Source of the DNA: Branchiostoma floridae
Taxonomy: Eukaryota > Chordata > Leptocardii > Amphioxiformes > Branchiostomatidae
NCBI RefSeq assembly: GCF_000003815.2
Contig: NC_049982.1
Coordinates: forward strand, 17,619,548-17,683,547
Length of the DNA stretch: 64,000 bases
Direction of reading: 5' to 3'
Position 1 is the stretch's first letter. Every line of letters starts with the position of its first letter. The notes under the pieces were generated by a model. That model was not told the DNA's origin. It was given only the letters and a program-made list of their open reading frames with translations, and did not search any database. Positions 15,976 through 34,559 of the stretch are shown piece by piece. A program made the position numbers and the translations under genes.

Positions 15976-16120
15976 CATGAACGAATGAAAAATTATTCCT
16001 TCATAACTGACTCAGTACATATGATAGTATGATATATGTTGTATGTAAAGAGCACTTTTCTATTTTTACTCAGGCTGTAGTTCCTGTTGGTGCCTGGTGT
16101 TGCTGACACATGAACAGGAG

Positions 16121-19100
16121 ATGTCCTCCCCGATCAGCAAACCTGACAAAGTCAGGTATGTCTGTGATGAGTGCCAGATGACATGCATTTCAGAGTACCA
16201 CCTCAACAAGCACAAGAGTTCGCACTATGACTGGAAACAGTGCTACGAGTGTAACCTCTGCAACTACTCCACTTTGTCCCTAAACCAGATCAAGATACAT
16301 GCCCTGAAACATGTCAAGTCAGAACAACACACCAACGAGGGGGATAGAGACACGCCAGCTTGCAATGGCACACAGGAGGTAGGAGATGGGCATAACAGCA
16401 AGATGTCAACACAAAGTAACACTTCTGGCCAGCAAATGGACTATAATGCTCCAGATGTTTTCCCAGTAAACAATGACAAAGAAGTAGGGGTTGATTTAGG
16501 TTCAAATTGTAACTCGCCATGTTTACCAAATGGAGCAATGGTAGAAAGCAGCAGGCAGGTAAATATGGATGGTTTTGGTTCAGATGTGGAGATCCTCTCT
16601 GTCCAAGGCAGTGAGGCAGATCCCGCAATCCCAGTGATTGTCTTAGAGTCTGACACAGATGAAGAATCCAGTACACTGCCAGAACACGCTGGGCAAACAA
16701 ATGAAGAGAAACCCATTTCAGATGGTGTCAGAAGTGAGATGACTGAAAATGACGAGCAGGTGACAGAGGACCAAGAAGAGAAACCATCAGAAGAAACCCA
16801 AGATACAGTGTTTAGCTGCTCCAATTGTTCGTTCACTACCCCAGAACTTAACCTACTGCTGAAACACCGGGAAATACACTTGAACAACAAATGCTACAGA
16901 TGTGACAAGTGCAGCTTCATTGCAGTTCAAGAAAAGTACTTGCTCATCCACCAGCAAAAACAGCATGCAGCTGCAGGTAGCAGTAAAGATCAGTGTGACC
17001 ACTGCCCCTTTTCAACAAAGGACCCAGAAGCAATGAAGAAGCATGGGAAGTTCCATGGTGCAAATCTGCCACTGAAGTGCCCTTTGTGTACATTTGCCTG
17101 CTCATCACATTTACAGCTTAGTTTGCACCTCAAGCTGCACGTGAAGATTGAAACTTTGCCTGTGGCAAACTGCCACACTGCTGCTCCTACCAGTGGTAGA
17201 GACTCTGATATTTCTGTCGCTCCAAGCAGTAGCATTGGAAATGCAAGTGACAACGATAGAGAGTTGCCCATGTCAAGCAATTGTGAGACAGCAAAGGAAA
17301 CTGCCACTTCACTTGACGTTAGTGACCTGGCAATGGAGGAACAGGCGAAAGACCAAAGTACCCCTTCAACTCCAAGCCAGTCAGCGGAGAAAAGAACATT
17401 TAATTGTGAAGAATGTGGGTTCAGTACTTACCGCAGGGAGACCTTGCGAACCCATATGAGAATCCACAGTGGCGAGAAGCCATACGCCTGCAGTTTCTGT
17501 CCCTACAGAGCCAGGCAGAAGCCAAACCTAAACACACACATGCAGTTTCACAAGGTTAGGTCCAAGTTCACCTGCAAATACTGCTCATATTCCACTAGCA
17601 ATAAGGCAAGCACACGTTTACATGAAACCTTGCATGAAAGCCTAAAATATGAAAATAAAAATCTAGGTACTCCTGAAAAAGAAGATTACAGTGAGCACTC
17701 TGATAGCCCAGAGAAGAGCCCTCGGAGCAAGGTAACGAGGGATAGAAAAGGGCTGTTCCGGTGTAAGCACTGCTCGTTTCACACCAGGCATTCCACCAGC
17801 ATTCAGCGTCACCTCAAGATCCATGAGGGCAGTAAACCCTTCAAATGTAAGCGCTGCTCCTACAGGGCTATCACCCTCTTCCAGATCCAGGGGCATGAGA
17901 AACACCATGACGAGACACTTCCCTTTAAGTGCAGGTGGTGCCACTACTTTGCTGAGACCCAGGCTGGTGTGGGCATCCATGAGCAACGTGTGCATGAGGA
18001 GTATCTGCAGGTGATCCCAAAGAAACAGAAAAATCTACCTTTGGATCTTTCAATGAAGAGCCCTGAGAAAAGCATGTCTCTGAACTCATCAAGTTCATCG
18101 GAAGTGGAGGAACTTCCTGTCAAGATAGAGACGATAGAGGCTGCTATTGAAGAGGTTGATGAAAATGGCAAGGCCAGATACAAGTGCAAAAGCTGCTCTT
18201 TTAAGACTGCTTGGAGGGAGAACTACTATCGACACTGTAGGATCCATACTGGAGAGAAGCCCTTCCACTGCCGACATTGTCCGTACCAGGCCAGGGGAAA
18301 CATGGCATGGTACAGGCACATGAAGCATCACACTGCCAACTACCCTTTCAAGTGCCCTTTGTGTACCTACACAAGCCTCAGTCAGGCAGCAGTCACTTCT
18401 CATCAAAATAAGGTGCATGACTGTAAGATTGACAACAAGAGTAACAAGTCATCATCTCAGAAAGTTGCTGGCAGCAAGGTCTCTGGCCAGCCATTGAAGG
18501 TGCCCGGAAGGCTGCGTTGTCCATTGTGCCAGTTCACCACTGCCAGTGAGACACTCTTAAAGCTGCACAAGGCCAAGCACATGTCCTCGGGGAAGACATA
18601 CAAGTGTAAAGATTGCAAATACACCACCCATCTTCTGCCCAGCCTTCTGAAGCATGCTGCTATCCACACCTCAGGAAAGTCATACCAGTGCAGGTACTGC
18701 CCATATGTAACCATGTACAAGGCTCATCTAGACAGACACGAGGAACACCATACTAAGAGCACTCCATCTAAGTTTAGGTGTGAACAGTGCACATACTCAG
18801 CAGGGAATCTGCTGGGCTTGTCTGAGCACCTCAAATGGCATGGGGGACCACAGCAAGTCAAGCATCCCGATGGAGTGGTGGACATTGGCATGGAGCAAAC
18901 AGACTACCTTGAAGAGGAAGAACATACTGAGATGATGGAGTTCCCAGAGGCCAGTTCAACGTCAAAACATTCTGTTGACCGAGACCAGGATCCCGTGAGT
19001 AGGGGTAGTCCAGCAAAGATGTATGAGTGTCACAGCTGTGATTACCAGTCCAAGGACTTGTGTGCCCTGAAGAGGCATTTACGCACACATACAGGGGAGA

Positions 19101-22100
19101 GGCCTTTCCAGTGCCAGCACTGTCCATACAGTGCCAGGCAAGTCACCAACATGAACCGGCATACCTACCAGCATTTTGCAAATCTTCCCCACAAATGCCC
19201 ACATTGCTCTTACTCTGTCCGAAACACATCAGCTCTTGCAAAGCATATTAAATGGCATTTGCCTGACACACAGGACGGTCTAGTCCCAGGACGTGATGAA
19301 AAAGGGGCCAGTTCTGCACCATCTGGCAGTCATATCTCACCAAGAATAAAGATCGAGAGGAGCCCCTCTGGTTCTGGGAGGAAGAGGAACCTTAACCGCA
19401 TTCACCGGTGCAAATGGTGCCCCTACACGACATGCTACCTCCACAACCTGCATCGGCACAAGACCCACCACGGGGCTGGCTTCCTGTACAAGTGTGATCT
19501 CTGCAGCTACTCTGCCAGGAACACCACTGGGCTCCAGAACCACGTAGAGCTCCACCAGAGGGCAGCTAACGGCCCCTCCATCTCAGAGCAGCATGCAATT
19601 TATCAGGGCAGCAATGGAGGAGAAGGTGGAGGCATCCCAGAAAGCCTGCATGCCAATAATCCGAACTGGACAGAAGGAGCCAGTGCTCAGGCAGCCAACA
19701 ACAGTGACGATATTAACATGAATGCCCAACAACGTTCACACTTTGAATGTGGCACATGTGGATACATGACCACTAGTCAGGAAAGGCTGTCAAAGCACAT
19801 GATCACCCACACAAGTCGCAGAACTCAATCCTGTGACATATGCCCATACAAGACCCGTCAGTCCAGAACATTATGGAAGCACATGAAACACCACACAGTA
19901 CAGCATGCTCTGAAGTGCAGTTTCTGCTCCTATAGCTCTGACTTTCCCCGAGCCATTACCAACCACGAGAGGGTGCACATGAGATATGCAGCAGAGATGG
20001 ACAACATGGCTATACAGCCCCACTCCGGAGAAGGCCTGACCTGTGATGACTGTCCGTTCCGTAGCCTTACTCTTAGTGGCCTTATGAAGCATAAGACGCA
20101 TCACACAGCAAACCTGGCATTTAAGTGCAAATCCTGCACATACACTGCCTCCTCCCCACGAATCATCTCCTACCACCAAAAAGTGCACCTGGAGAAGGTG
20201 GAAAAGCCATTTGAATGCGACATGTGCCCCTTCAAGTCGGCCTTCTCCAAGTGTCTTTTGAAGCACATGCAGCATCACAGTGCCAAGCTTCCCCTGAAGT
20301 GCAGATACTGTACCTACACCTCATCCTGCAACAGGGCCATTACTCTACATGAGAAAGTCCATGACCTAGGCCCAGACAAGGCTCTACCCTCTAGTAGTCT
20401 TGGCAACAGGCTGTGTGGGATTTGTGGGTATATTGCCTGCAGCCGAGCAAGGCTGGTTAAGCACATCCGGAAGCATACAGGTGAGAAACCTTTCAAGTGT
20501 GCCCACTGCCCATTCAAGACAAGTCTGGAGGATACCTTAGCCAAACACAACAAGCATCATGAGAGTAATGGTGCAGTCAAGTGCAGATACTGTAGCTATA
20601 GTTCCGATGTGACCAGGGTGGTCACAAACCATGAAAAACTGCACGAAGAGGGGACTGACGGCACTCAACAGTCTGCTACTCTGCCTAGTGGAAGCAAGAT
20701 GAACTCCAGCGTCTCTAGTAGTGAAGAAACAATGAAGAAAGCCAAGCCAGAAAACATGTACTCATGTCAGATGGACTATAAATGTGAACTGTGTAGTTAC
20801 ACTGCTCACTGCAAGAAGCGCATGGATGAACACATGTGTACCCACACAGGCTTCAAGCCATATGGCTGTGACATGTGCCCATACAGAACGCCTTTGAGGG
20901 AAACTCTCATGAGGCACAAAAAGCACCACACTGGGAATTTTGCCTTCAAGTGTAGTTTCTGTTCATACTCGGCTAAACGGGACTTTCATGTCAAAGAACA
21001 CGAGAAAGTCCACACCATGAAGCAGCCTCAGTACAAGATAATAACGACACCTACGGGTAACCACACTCATCTAGCTGAGCCTCTGGTTGTGAAGAAACGT
21101 TACGAGTGTCAGATTTGTGATTACACATCAGAAGACAAAAGCAGGCTAGTGAAGCATCAGAGAACCCACACCGGGGAGAAGCCTTATTCATGTAGGTTTT
21201 GCCCCTATAAAACAGCATTAAATGAAAGCCTGTGGAAACACATGAAACACCATAAAATTAAAGCCCCAATGCAGTGTCAGAAGTGTAGCTACTCAACTAC
21301 CACAATGCAGTCATTGTTGCTTCACAACAAGCTACATGGAGAAACAGATGATATCATAGTAGAGGCCAAACCAAAGGTTAACCAAGCTGGTTCAGATGAT
21401 GGACTAAAACCCAAGGCCACAGACTTCCAGTGCAACATGTGTGGCTACATGGCTCTTGATAGGAGTAAACTCATCAAGCATCTTCAGTCACATTCCTTAG
21501 AAAAGGCCTTCTCCTGCCCATCGTGTCCCTACAGGTCTTCCTCAAAGGAGAATGTGAAGAGGCACCAGAAGCACCACAGGAGTAAGTTCCCATTCCGCTG
21601 TCAGTTCTGCTCCTACAGCGCAAACAACAGCTCGGTGGTGAGAACACACGAGAAGCTTCACCAGGGGCAGTCATATCCTTGCCACAAAAAAATGCCATCA
21701 ATCCACTTCCAGTGCTTGACATGTGGGCTTCCACACGCAAGCCAGACAGACCTGGATGACCACAGGAGGGAAAATCACCCGTCTGAAAAATGTTTCCAGT
21801 GTCCAGAGTGTCCCTTTGTCAGCCAGTGGGAAAAGGCACTAAAGAAGCATCGGTACAGTCACATTGCCAACTTCCCCAACAAGTGTAGGTTGTGCTCCTT
21901 TACCTCCCCTAAAAAGTATGTTATCAGGGCCCATGAGCAGACCCACAAGAATGCCCCACATCTGATGGAAGAACAGAAGATTGAGAAGCTGACTGACAGA
22001 GAATGTCGGAAGATCTATACTTGTAACTTGTGTCCATTCAGAGCCAGGCAGCAGAGGGAGTATGAGAACCACATGTCTGGTCACAATGCTGCACATCCCT

Positions 22101-23332
22101 TCCAGTGTCCACAGTGTAGCTTCTCTGCTAAGGAAAACAGGGGTCTGTCCAGCCATCTGCGGGTGCATGACAGGCAGAAACAGCGCATCCTGAGATGTAG
22201 CACTTGTGGCTTTTCAACTGCCATAGCCAGCCTGATGAAGCTACATGAAGTCAAGCATAAGATCCACCCCAAAGACGGAAGGGTGGGAAACTCCCTTCGA
22301 ACGACAGACAAGCAGAGGAGGCTTCACTATTGCGGGCATTGCAGTTTCAGCACGCATCACCACAGGGCGTACAAGATCCATCTTATGCACCACGGAGCCA
22401 AACTGCCCTTCAAGTGCACCCACTGCACTTTTGCATGTCAACTCCGACGCCATCTCACCAGACACATCAACAACCAGCACAGGAACAATGAAGAGGACAT
22501 GACACTTGAGCAGCAGAATGGACCAAAGTACAAGGCTCCTGACAAAGTACAGATGACAAAGGCAGACAGGTTGTACCAACACTATGTGGAACCTTCCAGT
22601 GTGCCGTTCAAGTGTCCAAGCTGCAAGTTCACCACTAAGAAGAAGTACCTGTGGTTAATCCACAAGGGAAGACATTCAGAAGATAAGATTTTCCGCTGTG
22701 ATGAGTGTGACTTCACCACTAAGTGTGCAGGATCAGTTCTACCTCATATTCAGTGGAAGCATATGGGCCAGTGGCCACGTTACCTTCAGTGTAAGGAGTG
22801 CCCATACGAGACTTCTGACACCAGGTGCCTGAATAATCACATGAAACACCACACAGAGAACTATGCTATAAAATGTACCAAGTGCTCATACTCCACTGAC
22901 CTCCAGCACCTTTTGGAGAAGCACCTTAAAGTCCACAGTGCCAAGCACAGATCCAAAGTACCTCGTGCAAGTCAGCGTGGGTTTACAAGTCATGCCGAGT
23001 CACTCCCACAGTCAGAACTGTATGTGGAGGAAGAATCCATGGACTCCAAAAGTTCCGATCCCACCACAGATGATGTGGCAGTCAGCGGCCGTCCCCAGAA
23101 AATCGCTCCACGACAGTGCAACTTCTGCGGTCGTAGGTTCTTCCGGAAGGCGGAATGGAAGCGCCACACAAAGCGGCACAAACAGGCTCCGAGTGGTCCG
23201 CAGGCGCATGTGGTTGCCCATGGTGACCCTGTGACAGGCATGCTGGTCTACACATTTGTGTGCTGGTTCTGTGGGAGGAGGTTTAATGGACAGGAGGAAT
23301 GGTACAGGCACATGCAGCATCACAGGTTCTGA
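16121..23332 (+). CDS. Giant polyzinc-finger protein (2,403 aa, 57 C2H2 fingers), single coding exon
   Basis: Start ATG 16121 is chosen because the exon begins at 16074 after a TTTTTACTCAG acceptor and the frame is closed by a TGA in the upstream UTR exon. I count 57 C2H2 fingers. Two at the N-terminus are followed by an acidic, Ser-rich stretch (about residues 64-230). The array then runs largely as three-finger modules: a first finger of CxxC[GSD][FY] type, a TGEKP-like linker, a CPY/CPF finger, a short HH...FKC linker, then a CSY/CTY finger. Two distinct CGRRF-type fingers form the C-terminus. Residues 640-644 are PLDLS, the CtBP co-repressor docking motif. A nuclear DNA-binding, probably repressive, regulator is inferred. 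It recalls the large ZNF462- and REST-like finger proteins in style, but I cannot assign an orthologue. No frameshift is visible across the 7.2 kb. Confidence 0.95.
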   Translation: MSSPISKPDKVRYVCDECQMTCISEYHLNKHKSSHYDWKQCYECNLCNYSTLSLNQIKIHALKHVKSEQHTNEGDRDTPACNGTQEVGDGHNSKMSTQSNTSGQQMDYNAPDVFPVNNDKEVGVDLGSNCNSPCLPNGAMVESSRQVNMDGFGSDVEILSVQGSEADPAIPVIVLESDTDEESSTLPEHAGQTNEEKPISDGVRSEMTENDEQVTEDQEEKPSEETQDTVFSCSNCSFTTPELNLLLKHREIHLNNKCYRCDKCSFIAVQEKYLLIHQQKQHAAAGSSKDQCDHCPFSTKDPEAMKKHGKFHGANLPLKCPLCTFACSSHLQLSLHLKLHVKIETLPVANCHTAAPTSGRDSDISVAPSSSIGNASDNDRELPMSSNCETAKETATSLDVSDLAMEEQAKDQSTPSTPSQSAEKRTFNCEECGFSTYRRETLRTHMRIHSGEKPYACSFCPYRARQKPNLNTHMQFHKVRSKFTCKYCSYSTSNKASTRLHETLHESLKYENKNLGTPEKEDYSEHSDSPEKSPRSKVTRDRKGLFRCKHCSFHTRHSTSIQRHLKIHEGSKPFKCKRCSYRAITLFQIQGHEKHHDETLPFKCRWCHYFAETQAGVGIHEQRVHEEYLQVIPKKQKNLPLDLSMKSPEKSMSLNSSSSSEVEELPVKIETIEAAIEEVDENGKARYKCKSCSFKTAWRENYYRHCRIHTGEKPFHCRHCPYQARGNMAWYRHMKHHTANYPFKCPLCTYTSLSQAAVTSHQNKVHDCKIDNKSNKSSSQKVAGSKVSGQPLKVPGRLRCPLCQFTTASETLLKLHKAKHMSSGKTYKCKDCKYTTHLLPSLLKHAAIHTSGKSYQCRYCPYVTMYKAHLDRHEEHHTKSTPSKFRCEQCTYSAGNLLGLSEHLKWHGGPQQVKHPDGVVDIGMEQTDYLEEEEHTEMMEFPEASSTSKHSVDRDQDPVSRGSPAKMYECHSCDYQSKDLCALKRHLRTHTGERPFQCQHCPYSARQVTNMNRHTYQHFANLPHKCPHCSYSVRNTSALAKHIKWHLPDTQDGLVPGRDEKGASSAPSGSHISPRIKIERSPSGSGRKRNLNRIHRCKWCPYTTCYLHNLHRHKTHHGAGFLYKCDLCSYSARNTTGLQNHVELHQRAANGPSISEQHAIYQGSNGGEGGGIPESLHANNPNWTEGASAQAANNSDDINMNAQQRSHFECGTCGYMTTSQERLSKHMITHTSRRTQSCDICPYKTRQSRTLWKHMKHHTVQHALKCSFCSYSSDFPRAITNHERVHMRYAAEMDNMAIQPHSGEGLTCDDCPFRSLTLSGLMKHKTHHTANLAFKCKSCTYTASSPRIISYHQKVHLEKVEKPFECDMCPFKSAFSKCLLKHMQHHSAKLPLKCRYCTYTSSCNRAITLHEKVHDLGPDKALPSSSLGNRLCGICGYIACSRARLVKHIRKHTGEKPFKCAHCPFKTSLEDTLAKHNKHHESNGAVKCRYCSYSSDVTRVVTNHEKLHEEGTDGTQQSATLPSGSKMNSSVSSSEETMKKAKPENMYSCQMDYKCELCSYTAHCKKRMDEHMCTHTGFKPYGCDMCPYRTPLRETLMRHKKHHTGNFAFKCSFCSYSAKRDFHVKEHEKVHTMKQPQYKIITTPTGNHTHLAEPLVVKKRYECQICDYTSEDKSRLVKHQRTHTGEKPYSCRFCPYKTALNESLWKHMKHHKIKAPMQCQKCSYSTTTMQSLLLHNKLHGETDDIIVEAKPKVNQAGSDDGLKPKATDFQCNMCGYMALDRSKLIKHLQSHSLEKAFSCPSCPYRSSSKENVKRHQKHHRSKFPFRCQFCSYSANNSSVVRTHEKLHQGQSYPCHKKMPSIHFQCLTCGLPHASQTDLDDHRRENHPSEKCFQCPECPFVSQWEKALKKHRYSHIANFPNKCRLCSFTSPKKYVIRAHEQTHKNAPHLMEEQKIEKLTDRECRKIYTCNLCPFRARQQREYENHMSGHNAAHPFQCPQCSFSAKENRGLSSHLRVHDRQKQRILRCSTCGFSTAIASLMKLHEVKHKIHPKDGRVGNSLRTTDKQRRLHYCGHCSFSTHHHRAYKIHLMHHGAKLPFKCTHCTFACQLRRHLTRHINNQHRNNEEDMTLEQQNGPKYKAPDKVQMTKADRLYQHYVEPSSVPFKCPSCKFTTKKKYLWLIHKGRHSEDKIFRCDECDFTTKCAGSVLPHIQWKHMGQWPRYLQCKECPYETSDTRCLNNHMKHHTENYAIKCTKCSYSTDLQHLLEKHLKVHSAKHRSKVPRASQRGFTSHAESLPQSELYVEEESMDSKSSDPTTDDVAVSGRPQKIAPRQCNFCGRRFFRKAEWKRHTKRHKQAPSGPQAHVVAHGDPVTGMLVYTFVCWFCGRRFNGQEEWYRHMQHHRF

Positions 23333-29200: not shown

Positions 29201-29215
29201 TTACCTTTTTTTGTC

Positions 29216-29260
29216 AATTCTTACTATTCCTATTTGGCTACTGAAGGAATAGTAAGAATT
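29216..29260. repeat. Perfect 16-bp inverted repeat (hairpin)
   Basis: AATTCTTACTATTCCT at 29216-29231 and its exact reverse complement at 29245-29260, with a 13-base loop. It lies between the neuropeptide gene start and the candidate minus-strand exon. Confidence 0.8.
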
Positions 29261-29391
29261 AGCCAAAAATAACTGTAGTACAAAGTGCCCAAATACATCG
29301 ATCAGATCTATGTTGTCTACGTGGCTAAGAAACTGTTTGAATGTTCTCCTATCCCCGGTTTCTTCCTGCTCTCCAAAGTTGTGGGGACGCC

Positions 29392-30664
29392 ATGGAACTC
29401 CGTCTCTTCATAACCACCTTCCTGCTGATGCTGGTCGCTTTCCACGTATGTGCGGAGGATGAGAAGAAAGAGGTCAGATCTTTAAACCTATCGCGAAACG
29501 GTCATCTTCAATGACTCCTACAAAGTTAACTCATCAGTAACTGGACTGACATTATGTCAGCTAATGACAGGGAATACAAACGTTCTATGTGCCTGCATGG
29601 GTTGTTGATTGCCGGAAATGTCCATTTGAATACACAACAGTATAACGATAATATGTTTGCTGAAACAATACCTTATGTTTATTTACCATACACTGTAAAC
29701 CCATTTCACTAAAGCATGTATGATCGCAGATCAGGCAATGAGGTTAACGGTTGTAGTGAAAAGACACATTGTCCCAGAGTTTAGTCACGCTGCCTTGTTG
29801 GCTTTAGGTGGAACGGGAAGTAGAAAAGAGAATGGACCCCGCCTTGCTCGGGAAGAGGATGTCCGACCCTAGTGCCTTTGGGAAGCGACTGCTGGATAGA
29901 GGAGGGAAACGGCAGGACACGGCTTGGATGGGGAAGAGGCAGGATAGAGGCGGGAAACGGCAGGACATGGCTTGGATGGGGAAGAGGCAGGATAGAGGCG
30001 GGAAACGGCAGGACACGGCTTGGATGGGGAAGAGGCAGGATAGAGGCGGGAAACGGCAGGACATGGCTTGGATGGGGAAGCGTGACGGTACGTTCGCACT
30101 TAGTCTTTCTGATGCCTTAAAGGTCTGGATTACCGTCTTGTTTATCTTCTGGTTTATCTTCACACCATTTCGTTTATGTAACGTTAACTTTTCGACATAA
30201 AAACTGCCCCCGACTTCGTTCTTTGAGAAACAAACACAACGATCGATGCCGTTGTATGCTACTAGTATACGTTTAGTCGACAAATAGACCTGATGTTGAC
30301 ATGATGTACACACACAATTATTTCCACACATTCAAGAAGTCATGTATACTTTGTTGGTCATCTTTTTGGTGGTTTCGTCCGCCGTATGCGGCCACGGTCT
30401 GTATGTAAATTTGTACTTAGGTCTTGTCGCGGATCTATATATGTAGGATCATGAAAAGCACAGGTCTCACCAGAGAAACTGATATAAAAAACGAGCACAT
30501 GTGTATACATCGTGGTTGACAAGGGTTCTACTTACCAAAGCTATTTTCGTCCACACGGAATGATTGATTTCATTTTATTTGGCCTTGCATGCGCAGACCC
30601 CCGCACGTCGTGCCGGACCCAGTACGACCCGACCACCGGCAAGTGGATGTATGTGTGTTGGTGA
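29392..30664 (+). CDS. Neuropeptide precursor with repeated amidated peptides and a C-terminal two-Cys peptide
   Basis: Three exons: 29392..29472, 29808..30087 and 30597..30664 (phases 0 and 1), 142 residues. Exon 1 encodes a signal peptide (MELRLFITTFLLMLVAFHVC, then AEDEKKE). Exon 2 is a chain of Gly-Lys-Arg sites, the signal for cleavage and C-terminal amidation: MDPALL-G, MSDPSAF-G, LLDRG-G, QDTAWM-G, QDRG-G, QDMAWM-G, QDRG-G, QDTAWM-G, QDRG-G, QDMAWM-G. The Gln-start peptides could become pyroglutamyl. After the last KR, exon 3 completes DDPRTSCRTQYDPTTGKWMY followed by VCW and stop, a terminal peptide whose two cysteines could form a ring. Secretion and receptor signalling are inferred. 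The two-Cys, C-terminal position recalls MCH, somatostatin and urotensin II precursors, but loop length and sequence differ, so no name is given. The stop codon overlaps a good donor (TTG|GTGAGT), so further splicing is possible. Confidence 0.85.
29913..30080 (+). repeat. 48-bp coding tandem repeat in the neuropeptide gene
   Basis: The unit encodes QDxAWMGKRQDRGGKR and starts at 29913, 29961, 30009 and 30057 (the last unit stops after GKR). Position x alternates Thr, Met, Thr, Met through ACG/ATG, pointing to duplication of a 96-bp double unit. The unit lies wholly within exon 2. Confidence 0.95.
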
Positions 30665-30772
30665 GTTGTCTTCGGATCAGGGAGACTCTCCCACATTATC
30701 GTTATTCTGTTAAAAAAAATCAGGACATGCAATGTGCATACACCACAAGAAGTGTGTTATAGATGGCAGTGA

Positions 30773-31138
30773 NNNNNNNNNNNNNNNNNNNNNNNNNNNN
30801 NNNNNNNNNNNNNNNNNNNNNNNNNNNNNNNNNNNNNNNNNNNNNNNNNNNNNNNNNNNNNNNNNNNNNNNNNNNNNNNNNNNNNNNNNNNNNNNNNNNN
30901 NNNNNNNNNNNNNNNNNNNNNNNNNNNNNNNNNNNNNNNNNNNNNNNNNNNNNNNNNNNNNNNNNNNNNNNNNNNNNNNNNNNNNNNNNNNNNNNNNNNN
31001 NNNNNNNNNNNNNNNNNNNNNNNNNNNNNNNNNNNNNNNNNNNNNNNNNNNNNNNNNNNNNNNNNNNNNNNNNNNNNNNNNNNNNNNNNNNNNNNNNNNN
31101 NNNNNNNNNNNNNNNNNNNNNNNNNNNNNNNNNNNNNN
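30773..31138. other. Assembly gap (366 N)
   Basis: A run of N immediately 3' of the last neuropeptide exon. It could hide further exons or the 3' UTR. An AATAAA at 31438-31443 beyond it could serve as the poly(A) signal of that gene. Confidence 0.99.
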
Positions 31139-31776
31139 TATAGTTAAGGGGTCGTCTCCGTCTGCGATAGATGTAGTCTGACTATCTTACAGCGTAAAAT
31201 AGATTTATGTGCCGGTTACATTTTGTAGCGTCTGTGTTTCGTTACAAGGTCTCTTGCCTTACGATGCCAAGCTTGTGCCTATCAGTTGTCAGTGGTGTAA
31301 GCATGTAAAGTTATTCTTAAACTAGAATGGACGAAGAATGTATGGTGTTGTATCATGTATATTTTATCGCGTTTTTCTAGAGAAGGTAGACGTGGGAAAG
31401 GCATGTTGGTTCAATATGTACCAAAGGAGTCACTGAAAATAAACATAATCTATAAAAAATGCTACTTTCTCCTGTCACTGGGTTTACTCAGTAAGGGTCG
31501 TCAATGGGTAGCGTGAGCAAGCAAGATAAGTGCTTACTATCTAAGGCCGGCCGGCCAAGTCACGTGCGTATGAAATATTCTACGACAAAAAAAAGGTAAA
31601 ATACAAAATCCAATTCAACCGATCCGATGAGTGTTATTAAAAATAAGTAAAGAAATAAGATCCAAAACTCAGTACATTTCGATGGAGATTAATTTTGTTC
31701 TCATCAACTTTCGGGGTTCAAGTAAGCCTCATTTTGGAAGGCGCACGAACTTTCGAAAGATTGCAAATTCTATAAT

Positions 31777-32880
31777 AATGACAATGACAATGACAATGAC
31801 AATGATGTTTATTGCATGTTCATGCCCCAATGGGGCTAAATGCATTAAGTTTGATATAAAGTTAATGACAACAAATAAACAATGATATATCCTAATAATA
31901 ACTATTTTCTACAAGCTTCGTCCCTCCTCTTAAAACAAGAGTAAACGAACTTACACAGTTCTTCCAATATGTCATAGTTAGTTGATGACATCAGATATTT
32001 AAACATGTCTACCTTTGTTATGTTTGTATATTTCTCTTTAACACGTTTAACATTAACAAGGCTATAACGCATATCATTGTACAGAGAACACTCTAGTACA
32101 AAGTGCATTTCATTTTCTATACATCTGACATTCTTATTACAAAACATGCATATTCTATCGTCAGGAGGAGTTCGGGTGTATCTGCCAGCTTCAATTTGCA
32201 GTGGGTGATCGCTGATCCTTAATTTAGTCATGGCTCGGCGATAACTAAAATTTGTTATCTCTAGGTACTTTTCTCTTTCATAAGTAAGCTTGAATTTTCT
32301 GTAGGTTCTTAACTTATTACCTTGGTTTTCCTTCATGCCAGGAGAATTCATTTCGGAGTAAAAATTTTGAACAAAGTTGTCTTTCAGTCTTTGGTTTACT
32401 TCGGACTGAGCGAAAGATGTGTTGCGATCACTGTTAATCAAAAGATAGGCAAAACCAGACTCCTCCAGGATTTTACTAACATTGGAAAACCAGCATGGTA
32501 TGTTGCGACTGTGTAAGTCCTGCTGTACAAGAAAAGCTTCAAATTGTAGACTATTTCTTGGCACTTCTTTAACTAATCTTTTGTAGTATGAATACAATCT
32601 AGTATATACTTCGATCCACAGAGGATACCTGCCTAGTTCTGCCCTTGTTGCAAGATTACTTGAGTTTTTTCTTACGCCTAATAACGACTTACAAAACTTC
32701 AGATGAACTTGTTCAATGGGTGACTTATCATTTAATCCCATTTTGCCCCATACCTCTGCACCATAAGTCAATATTGGGACAACGCAGGCATCAAATAATT
32801 TACAATATACTGAAATTGAAGGATTGGTTTCACCTAGTGTTGTTTTAATACTGAACAAAGCTCTTAGCGCCTTCTAGCCT
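31777..32880 (-). mobile_element. 5'-truncated LINE (non-LTR retrotransposon) with reverse-transcriptase C-terminal region
   Basis: The minus-strand frame 32858..31902 is open for 318 codons. It begins ALFSIKTTLGE and continues through FDACVVPILTYGAEVWG, the typical region just after the polymerase domain in LINE ORF2. Near the end is a Cys/His knuckle: CMFC, then ExHFVLEC-type residues. The frame enters from a stop and has no endonuclease or catalytic YxDD part, so the copy is 5'-truncated. Downstream on the minus strand come a GCCCCATTGGGGC hairpin and a tail of about four ATTGTC units (plus-strand AATGAC, 31777-31806), a CR1/L2-like 3' end. It probably cannot move by itself. Confidence 0.85.
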
Positions 32881-33294: not shown

Positions 33295-34559
33295 TCACTT
33301 CTTGGCCGCGGCCTTGCGGCTCCTGCTCCTCTTGCGCCTCTTCCCTCCCTTCTTGGCCTTCTTGGCAGGCTTCTTGGCAGACTTGGATCGGGAGCGGGAC
33401 TTCCTCCTCTTGCCTCCCTTCTTGGCGGCCTTGCGGCTACGGCTGCGGCTGCGGGACTTCCTCCCCTTGCGGCTTGCCTTGCGTGCGCTCCTCTTGCGCT
33501 TCTTGGGTGCCTACAAAATGAATATGGTGAGCATACGTAAATAAGAATGAATACGAGAAAGTGTCTTATACAAACGCGGATATATATGAAAAAGAACATC
33601 TACGAAGTGCCATGAGACGATGATTTGAAAAAAAAAAGCCGATCCGTAAAAAGACACCATCAATTCAACAAATTCCAGACACGCAAGAATCACTGAAATT
33701 CATTGACATGTTAACAGGTGTCGCTGTAAAGTCATGTTGAAAGCGAGTGAAGGAAGCGCAGACTTACCGGAGCTGCGACGGCAGGGGCGGCGGCAGGGGC
33801 GGCAGCGGCCTTCTTTGCACGGCTTCGGCTACGTCCGCGGCTCCTGGAGCCTGGAAAATCAGAAAGGCAAGAAAATAAGTCACGAACTGTAGCTTGGTTC
33901 AATACAATCTACATGAAGTACAATGTAGCTATTTTCAAACTTGTTTACGTTCGTGCAGAATAAATCCGTTAGAGTGTGTTCGAAACGTTCTTTACCGTTC
34001 GGGATCCGTTCTAAAGAAGTTAAAAAGAATGTTTGTGTTTTTTCTAGCCACAACGGTCACGTTCGAACGCCAGTTTTACCGTTATTTTTTTGGATGAAGA
34101 AATCTCAACCACTGAATTTGAAAGAAACGTGGAAACACTAAAACCAACTTTTTTTTGAAAAGCTAAAATTTACAAAGTCTTGAAAAGTTAAGGCAATCCA
34201 TGCATATAAAAGTTCCCATCAAGATGACGTACTGAAACACCATTGGAATGTCTTCGCCTGAGTGTCTAAGTTGCATTTCAAAAAATCTGAAGTCGAACTC
34301 TGTTTGCTTTACTCTAATGTGAGAACGTTTTGAACGACCATAAGAGAATAGAAATGAATGTTTGGATAAATGATGCTTACTGTTCTTTCTCATCTCATAG
34401 GATGGTGTACATGATAAAAAGAATTCGCATCGCTAAAGTTACACCATAAAGATTCAATTCTGCATCAGCAAAAAAAGATTAGATTCTTAAAAATGACTAA
34501 AGCAGAAAAATGTTCAACTCACGCTTCTTGGATGCACTGCGGCTACGTGAACGGGGCAT
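33295..34559 (-). CDS. Arg/Lys/Ser-rich protamine-like (sperm-type nuclear basic) protein, 111 aa
   Basis: Three minus-strand exons assembled from splice signals: 34523..34559 (ATG at 34559, donor C|GTGAGT), 33768..33850 (TTTTCCAG acceptor, CCG|GTAAG donor) and 33295..33510 (TTTGTAG acceptor, stop TGA). The phases match. The protein starts MPRSRSRSASKKRSRSRGRS, has an Ala/Pro hinge (KKAAAAPAAAPAVAAPAP) and then a KKRKR/SRSRSR/AKKPAKKAKK tail. About 54 of 111 residues are Lys or Arg; there is no Asp, Glu or Cys. SR dipeptides and AKK/PAKK repeats resemble protamine-like sperm proteins and histone H1 tails, but there is no winged-helix globular domain. The role inferred is DNA compaction, probably in sperm. 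An SR-type RNA protein is less likely because there is no RRM and Lys is so abundant. Long ORFs in other frames here are shadows. Confidence 0.85.

Follow-up and report, generated by a model that had tools for sequence, protein, structure and literature searches.

A three-exon gene on the forward strand of the lancelet Branchiostoma floridae very probably encodes a secreted, multi-copy neuropeptide precursor, for which we also propose a mechanism. The gene lies within the window, by which we mean the whole 64,000-nucleotide stretch of DNA that was analysed. This is the best explanation of the locus because a single frame combines a leader, a KR site and ten GKR sites, while the best frames of simulated sequence reach one GKR at most, and because its 48-bp repeats are in frame. 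It is further favoured because the splice sites are strong, exon GC exceeds intron GC, the gene is single copy and the thyrotropin-releasing hormone (TRH) precursor used as a positive control was found. Most likely, the product is an orphan cephalochordate neuropeptide precursor, and it is probably one that is so far unnamed, whose kind is familiar and whose products are not.

Structure of the predicted gene

When joined, the three predicted exons, all on the + strand, translate as a single unbroken frame of 142 codons followed by a stop:

29392..29472, + strand: exon 1 (coding part, 27 codons); leader MELRLFITTFLLMLVAFHVCA, phase-0 donor GAG/GTCAGA
29808..30087, + strand: exon 2; VEREVEKR, then ten GKR-flanked peptides, phase-1 donor
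30597..30664, + strand: exon 3; C-terminal 23-mer DDPRTSCRTQYDPTTGKWMYVCW, read together with the final four bases of exon 2, and TGA stop

The core of the leader is hydrophobic (mean Kyte-Doolittle value of 2.4 over residues 5-20), with cleavage likely before EDEKKE, a site judged by eye. After the leader comes a short charged stretch that ends in KR (residues 34-35) ahead of the first peptide, and the dibasic sites of the translated precursor consist of this KR and the ten GKR. The general class of multi-copy amidated neuropeptide precursors is marked by a secretory leader, seen here in the translation and the hydropathy, and by repeated peptides bounded by GKR or KR, which are also present. 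The original prediction had proposed a neuropeptide-type secreted precursor from the DNA letters; translation of the predicted exons bore out its coordinates, its reading frame, its leader and all ten of its GKR sites, and the proposal itself is well supported by this anatomy.

Splice sites were scored with consensus matrices. By these scores, the two donors are the top two within 29430-30600, that of exon 1 being the second and that of exon 2 the best; among the 3,860 GT sites of the whole window, they rank within the highest 2.8% and 1.3%. The exon 2 acceptor is the top scorer within 29480-30770 and the exon 3 acceptor ranks third there, slightly below one at 30122; in the whole window, the acceptors fall in the top 1.7% and 6.0% of 4,038 AG sites. 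The choice of exon 3 rests on a fair, not outstanding, acceptor, and AG sites ahead of a gap in the assembly offer 12 alternatives, phase-compatible continuations that are 15 residues or longer and lie before the gap or run into it.

The exons are richer in GC than the introns, with contents of 51, 60 and 63% in exons 1, 2 and 3 against 39 and 40% in the introns, and third codon positions of the frame reach 74%. The value for exon 1 is only moderately high, being reached by 12% of the window's 81-mers, and that for exon 3 is matched by no 68-mer in a sample drawn from 27-33 kb with the gene left aside.

The assembly gap is a run of N at 30773-31138 that begins 108 bases past the stop codon, so that further 3' exons are possible and the 3' end of the gene may be hidden. 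No AATAAA or ATTAAA occurs between the stop codon and the N run, and the first such signal is at 31438. A 25-nt inverted repeat (88% complementary, 13-nt loop) occupies 29207-29269, some 120 bases ahead of the start codon. Farther upstream, a 2427-codon open frame on the + strand (16049-23332) encodes many C2H2 zinc fingers, and since a 1000-residue piece of it (16133-19132) matches the Pfam model of the seventh finger of ZNF462 (E 6.4e-19), a ZNF462-like gene lies there. Downstream, a 323-residue open frame on the - strand (31902-32873), with no Pfam match at E 0.01, resembles the end of a LINE reverse transcriptase, and a local GC peak at 33300-33900 (50-55%, against 40% for the window) is perhaps a promoter or an exon of another gene.

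Predicted peptides and the tandem array

All ten peptides encoded by exon 2 are predicted amides, as judged from the GKR that follows each of them:

29832..29849, + strand: MDPALL-amide (predicted), GKR at 29850-29858; a 25-nt stretch resembles the QDTAWM-GKR stretch
29859..29879, + strand: MSDPSAF-amide (predicted), GKR at 29880-29888
29889..29903, + strand: LLDRG-amide (predicted), GKR at 29904-29912; apparent diverged first copy of the DRG peptide
29913..29930, + strand: QDTAWM-amide (predicted), copy 1
29940..29951, + strand: QDRG-amide (predicted), copy 1
29961..29978, + strand: QDMAWM-amide (predicted), copy 1
29988..29999, + strand: QDRG-amide (predicted), copy 2
30009..30026, + strand: QDTAWM-amide (predicted), copy 2
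30036..30047, + strand: QDRG-amide (predicted), copy 3
30057..30074, + strand: QDMAWM-amide (predicted), copy 2, GKR at 30075-30083

These are exactly the counts first proposed: two each of QDTAWM and QDMAWM, three of QDRG, and one each of MDPALL, MSDPSAF and LLDRG. Seven of the ten start with Gln and therefore, going by known processing, could bear a pyroglutamate besides the amide. The C-terminal 23-mer, which the original prediction did not mention, contains two cysteines with 14 residues between them and may be a disulphide-looped peptide or a tail that serves in processing.

With its ten GKR, this frame leads all others in the window, the runner-up having two. Sequences of 63 kb were simulated 15 times under a first-order Markov model, which reproduces neighbouring-base composition only and leaves tandem duplication aside, and the best frame held one GKR in 15 of 15. 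Eight of the ten GKR are not independent because they lie within or overlap a tandem array, the two outside it being those that follow MDPALL and MSDPSAF:

29894..30080, + strand: tandem array, period 48 bp, 3.9 copies, 97% matches (Tandem Repeats Finder)

One 48-bp unit corresponds to one DRG peptide and one QDxAWM peptide, both GKR included, and it is because the duplicated unit encodes both that the two peptides alternate. The strict alternation that had been singled out as unusual is thus present in the sequence, and it was over-read, being a by-product of the tandem unit. The order T, M, T, M among the QDxAWM copies suggests a later duplication of a 96-bp pair, and LLDRG is the first copy of the QDRG peptide, since diverged. 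The DNA of MDPALL-GKR and that of QDTAWM-GKR are identical at 19 of 25 nucleotides (76%), an identity that is partly due to the shared GKR. With Asp and Ala in register, MDPALL, QDTAWM and QDMAWM show hints of being a single class.

This register bears on which of the products act as signals. It is possible, if doubtful, that the only signals are those of the QDxAWM type, with QDRG and LLDRG as incidentally amidated spacers and the tail serving as an aid to folding or sorting. Because MDPALL shares with QDTAWM both the D and A register and the 19 of 25 nucleotides, the QDxAWM class may have been kept through divergence, as such a reading would have it. Each of the three QDRG copies, however, has a Gln start and a GKR to itself, LLDRG would be a fourth amidated copy, and to our knowledge plain spacers are not expected to carry amidation sites. 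For the tail, a precedent may be seen in the cysteine region of luqin precursors, for which a role in processing is put forward as one possibility in one account (PMC5940834), though a splice form without the region is taken in another to suggest that it may not be essential (PMC7041311).

Searches for relatives and alternative identities

A search of the genome (513,431,437 bases in 431 contigs, the window being C4:17619548-17683547) with the precursor returned 11 matches, three of which are this gene, and the best match of each exon was its own locus (E <1e-8). Among the other eight, which score low, four (L004, L005, L006 and L008) look like unrelated repeats on inspection, one (L007) overlaps L006, two on contig C5 overlap L008, and one on contig C16 has an E of 2.2. 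The 513-Mb genome holds one copy of the gene, with no paralogue found, and the C-terminal 23-mer searched alone in the genome matched itself only. As a DNA pattern, AWMGKR gave six genomic matches against one for the reversed control; four of the six are in this array, and the remaining two lie in frames without repeats.

No relative was found in Pfam (best E 2.6), NCBIfam (best E 3) or PDB (none up to E 10), and a scan of viral contigs, used as a negative control, gave four pattern matches and zero relatives. A text search of 5.39 million papers with the peptide strings, whose scope lay mostly outside subscription journals and supplements so that an earlier listing is possible, returned no relevant paper: one set of strings gave none, and of the six papers given by a second set, the five listed have titles on unrelated subjects. 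Within these bounds, the searches side with the original view that the WM-amide peptides are unfamiliar.

As defined in one account (PMC4772807), TRH-type peptides start with Gln or pyroglutamate, end in an amide, and are tri- or tetrapeptides whose second and third residues are aromatic or cyclic. The same source describes the echinoderm form as pyroglutamyl tetrapeptide amides, many copies of which lie between dibasic sites (pQYPG-amide in sea urchin), and gives pQSP-amide, with Ser at position 2, as the B. floridae peptide. The echinoderm form invites a reading of the present gene as a TRH-type precursor or paralogue, in which QDRG-amide would be a pyroglutamyl tetrapeptide amide like sea urchin pQYPG-amide, and we regard this as very unlikely. 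The three QDRG copies do have a Gln start, an amide and the length of a tetrapeptide by sequence, their modifications being predicted, but positions 2 and 3 are occupied by Asp and Arg, which are neither aromatic nor proline.

A lancelet TRH precursor is, moreover, already present on another contig (L017, at C5:29430500-29434500), where a genome query with QSPGKR located it; 17 QSPGKR and one QHPGKR are visible in two open frames, and part of the locus reads N. The QSPGKR copies agree with the pQSP-amide given for B. floridae, which supports a lancelet origin of the genome. The QHPGKR would give the exact vertebrate TRH sequence, pQHP-amide. The query gave 78 matches in all, from which the present gene is absent. 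Three of the 20 regions examined hold a frame with at least three GKR-like sites, one being the TRH gene and two being plain repeats by eye. Since the known TRH precursor was recovered, this style of search can find true precursors.

According to a 2019 review (PMC6880623), tachykinin-type peptides are FxGLM-amides in deuterostomes or FxGxR-amides in protostomes, and B. floridae has tachykinin-type receptors with no known precursors. The present gene could in principle supply this missing ligand in strongly altered form, with AWM-amide instead of GLM-amide, and it would suit such an idea that a pattern of FxGLMG plus two basic-like codons, run on the unspliced genome, gave nothing precursor-like: it had 12 matches against 17 for the reversed control, an intron-split motif being invisible to it, and none of the 12 resembles a precursor by eye. 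Three of these matches, on contig C9, read FxGLMGKR; at one (L044) the opposite strand is open for 82 residues and, judged by eye, resembles a coding exon, and the other two share its flanking sequence. The idea is nevertheless most improbable, for neither FxGLM-amide nor FxGxR-amide occurs among the ten peptides here, all of which lack both Phe at -5 and Gly at -3, and only the final Met-amide is common to both.

That the locus is not a gene, and is instead a GC-rich minisatellite open by chance, is scarcely credible, for although the array repeats a 48-bp unit with 97% matches, the opposite strand is likewise open across the array stretch (175 aa) and 20% of random 426-mers score as high as the frame in synonymous codon usage relative to the neighbouring zinc-finger frame, the leader, the two GKR outside the array, the strong splice sites in the right phases and the GC-rich exons 2 and 3 all concur against it.

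Proposed processing and comparison with known precursors

For the neuropeptide precursor, we propose the following course. After splicing, the leader would route the 142-residue protein to the regulated secretory pathway. Judging from the GKR sites, prohormone convertases would cut after each KR, a carboxypeptidase would strip K and R, and peptidylglycine amidation would convert the exposed Gly to an amide, while products that start with Gln would probably be cyclised to pyroglutamate. Each precursor molecule could then yield four QD(T/M)AWM-amides, three QDRG-amides, single MDPALL-, MSDPSAF- and LLDRG-amides and the C-terminal two-cysteine 23-mer, and the small doubly capped peptides would act on G-protein-coupled receptors. 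The array itself would have grown by tandem duplication of the 48-bp unit, with the 96-bp step suggested by the T/M pattern coming later. What the analysis shows is the frame, the sites, the repeats, the splice signals and the single copy; the actual splicing, secretion, cleavage, amidation, pyroglutamate formation, any disulphide of the tail and the action on receptors are steps that we infer.

Tentatively, the gene may go further and represent an undescribed chordate system, in which QD(T/M)AWM-amide and QDRG-amide, both doubly capped and unrelated to each other, would be released from one precursor in a nearly fixed ratio, possibly with a third, looped peptide from the C-terminus, to act on receptors without a known lancelet ligand. 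Lancelets branch at the base of the chordates. At least one type of neuropeptide receptor in them, the tachykinin type, had no identified ligand according to the 2019 review (PMC6880623). A precursor with exact predicted products supplies testable ligands for such receptors. Should the gene be restricted to lancelets, it would also illustrate the emergence of a new peptide signal within the chordates.

Held against the definitions taken in full, the predicted precursor belongs to none of the TRH, tachykinin, luqin and Wamide families. Wamides carry a C-terminal Trp-amide, which is found in none of the ten peptides here; the likeness to this superfamily (MIP, GLWamide) lies in short amidated peptides, four of the ten having Trp, but here the Trp is penultimate and not the amidated residue. 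One report gives Wamides as not identified in deuterostomes (PMC7270403).

Luqin/RYamide-type precursors, which encode an RW-, RF- or RY-amide peptide in the account of PMC5940834, likewise have two cysteines C-terminal of their amidated peptides. In that account, ten residues typically lie between the cysteines (eight in C. elegans), whereas the spacing here is 14, and none of the ten peptides is an RF-, RY- or RW-amide; luqin signalling is reported in two sources as lost in chordates (PMC5940834, PMC7041311). Tachykinin-type precursors are similar in having short peptides, and four of the ten here end in Met-amide, but the FxGL core is in none of them and the C-terminal two-cysteine tail is present here. 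TRH-type precursors (pQHP-amide, pQSP-amide, pQYPG-amide and echinoderm pQWYT-amide) share with the lancelet precursor the arrangement of many very short Gln-starting peptides, each followed by Gly and a dibasic site; it differs from them in having Asp-Arg at positions 2-3 and a second peptide class interleaved with the first, and in coming from a genome with a separate TRH gene.
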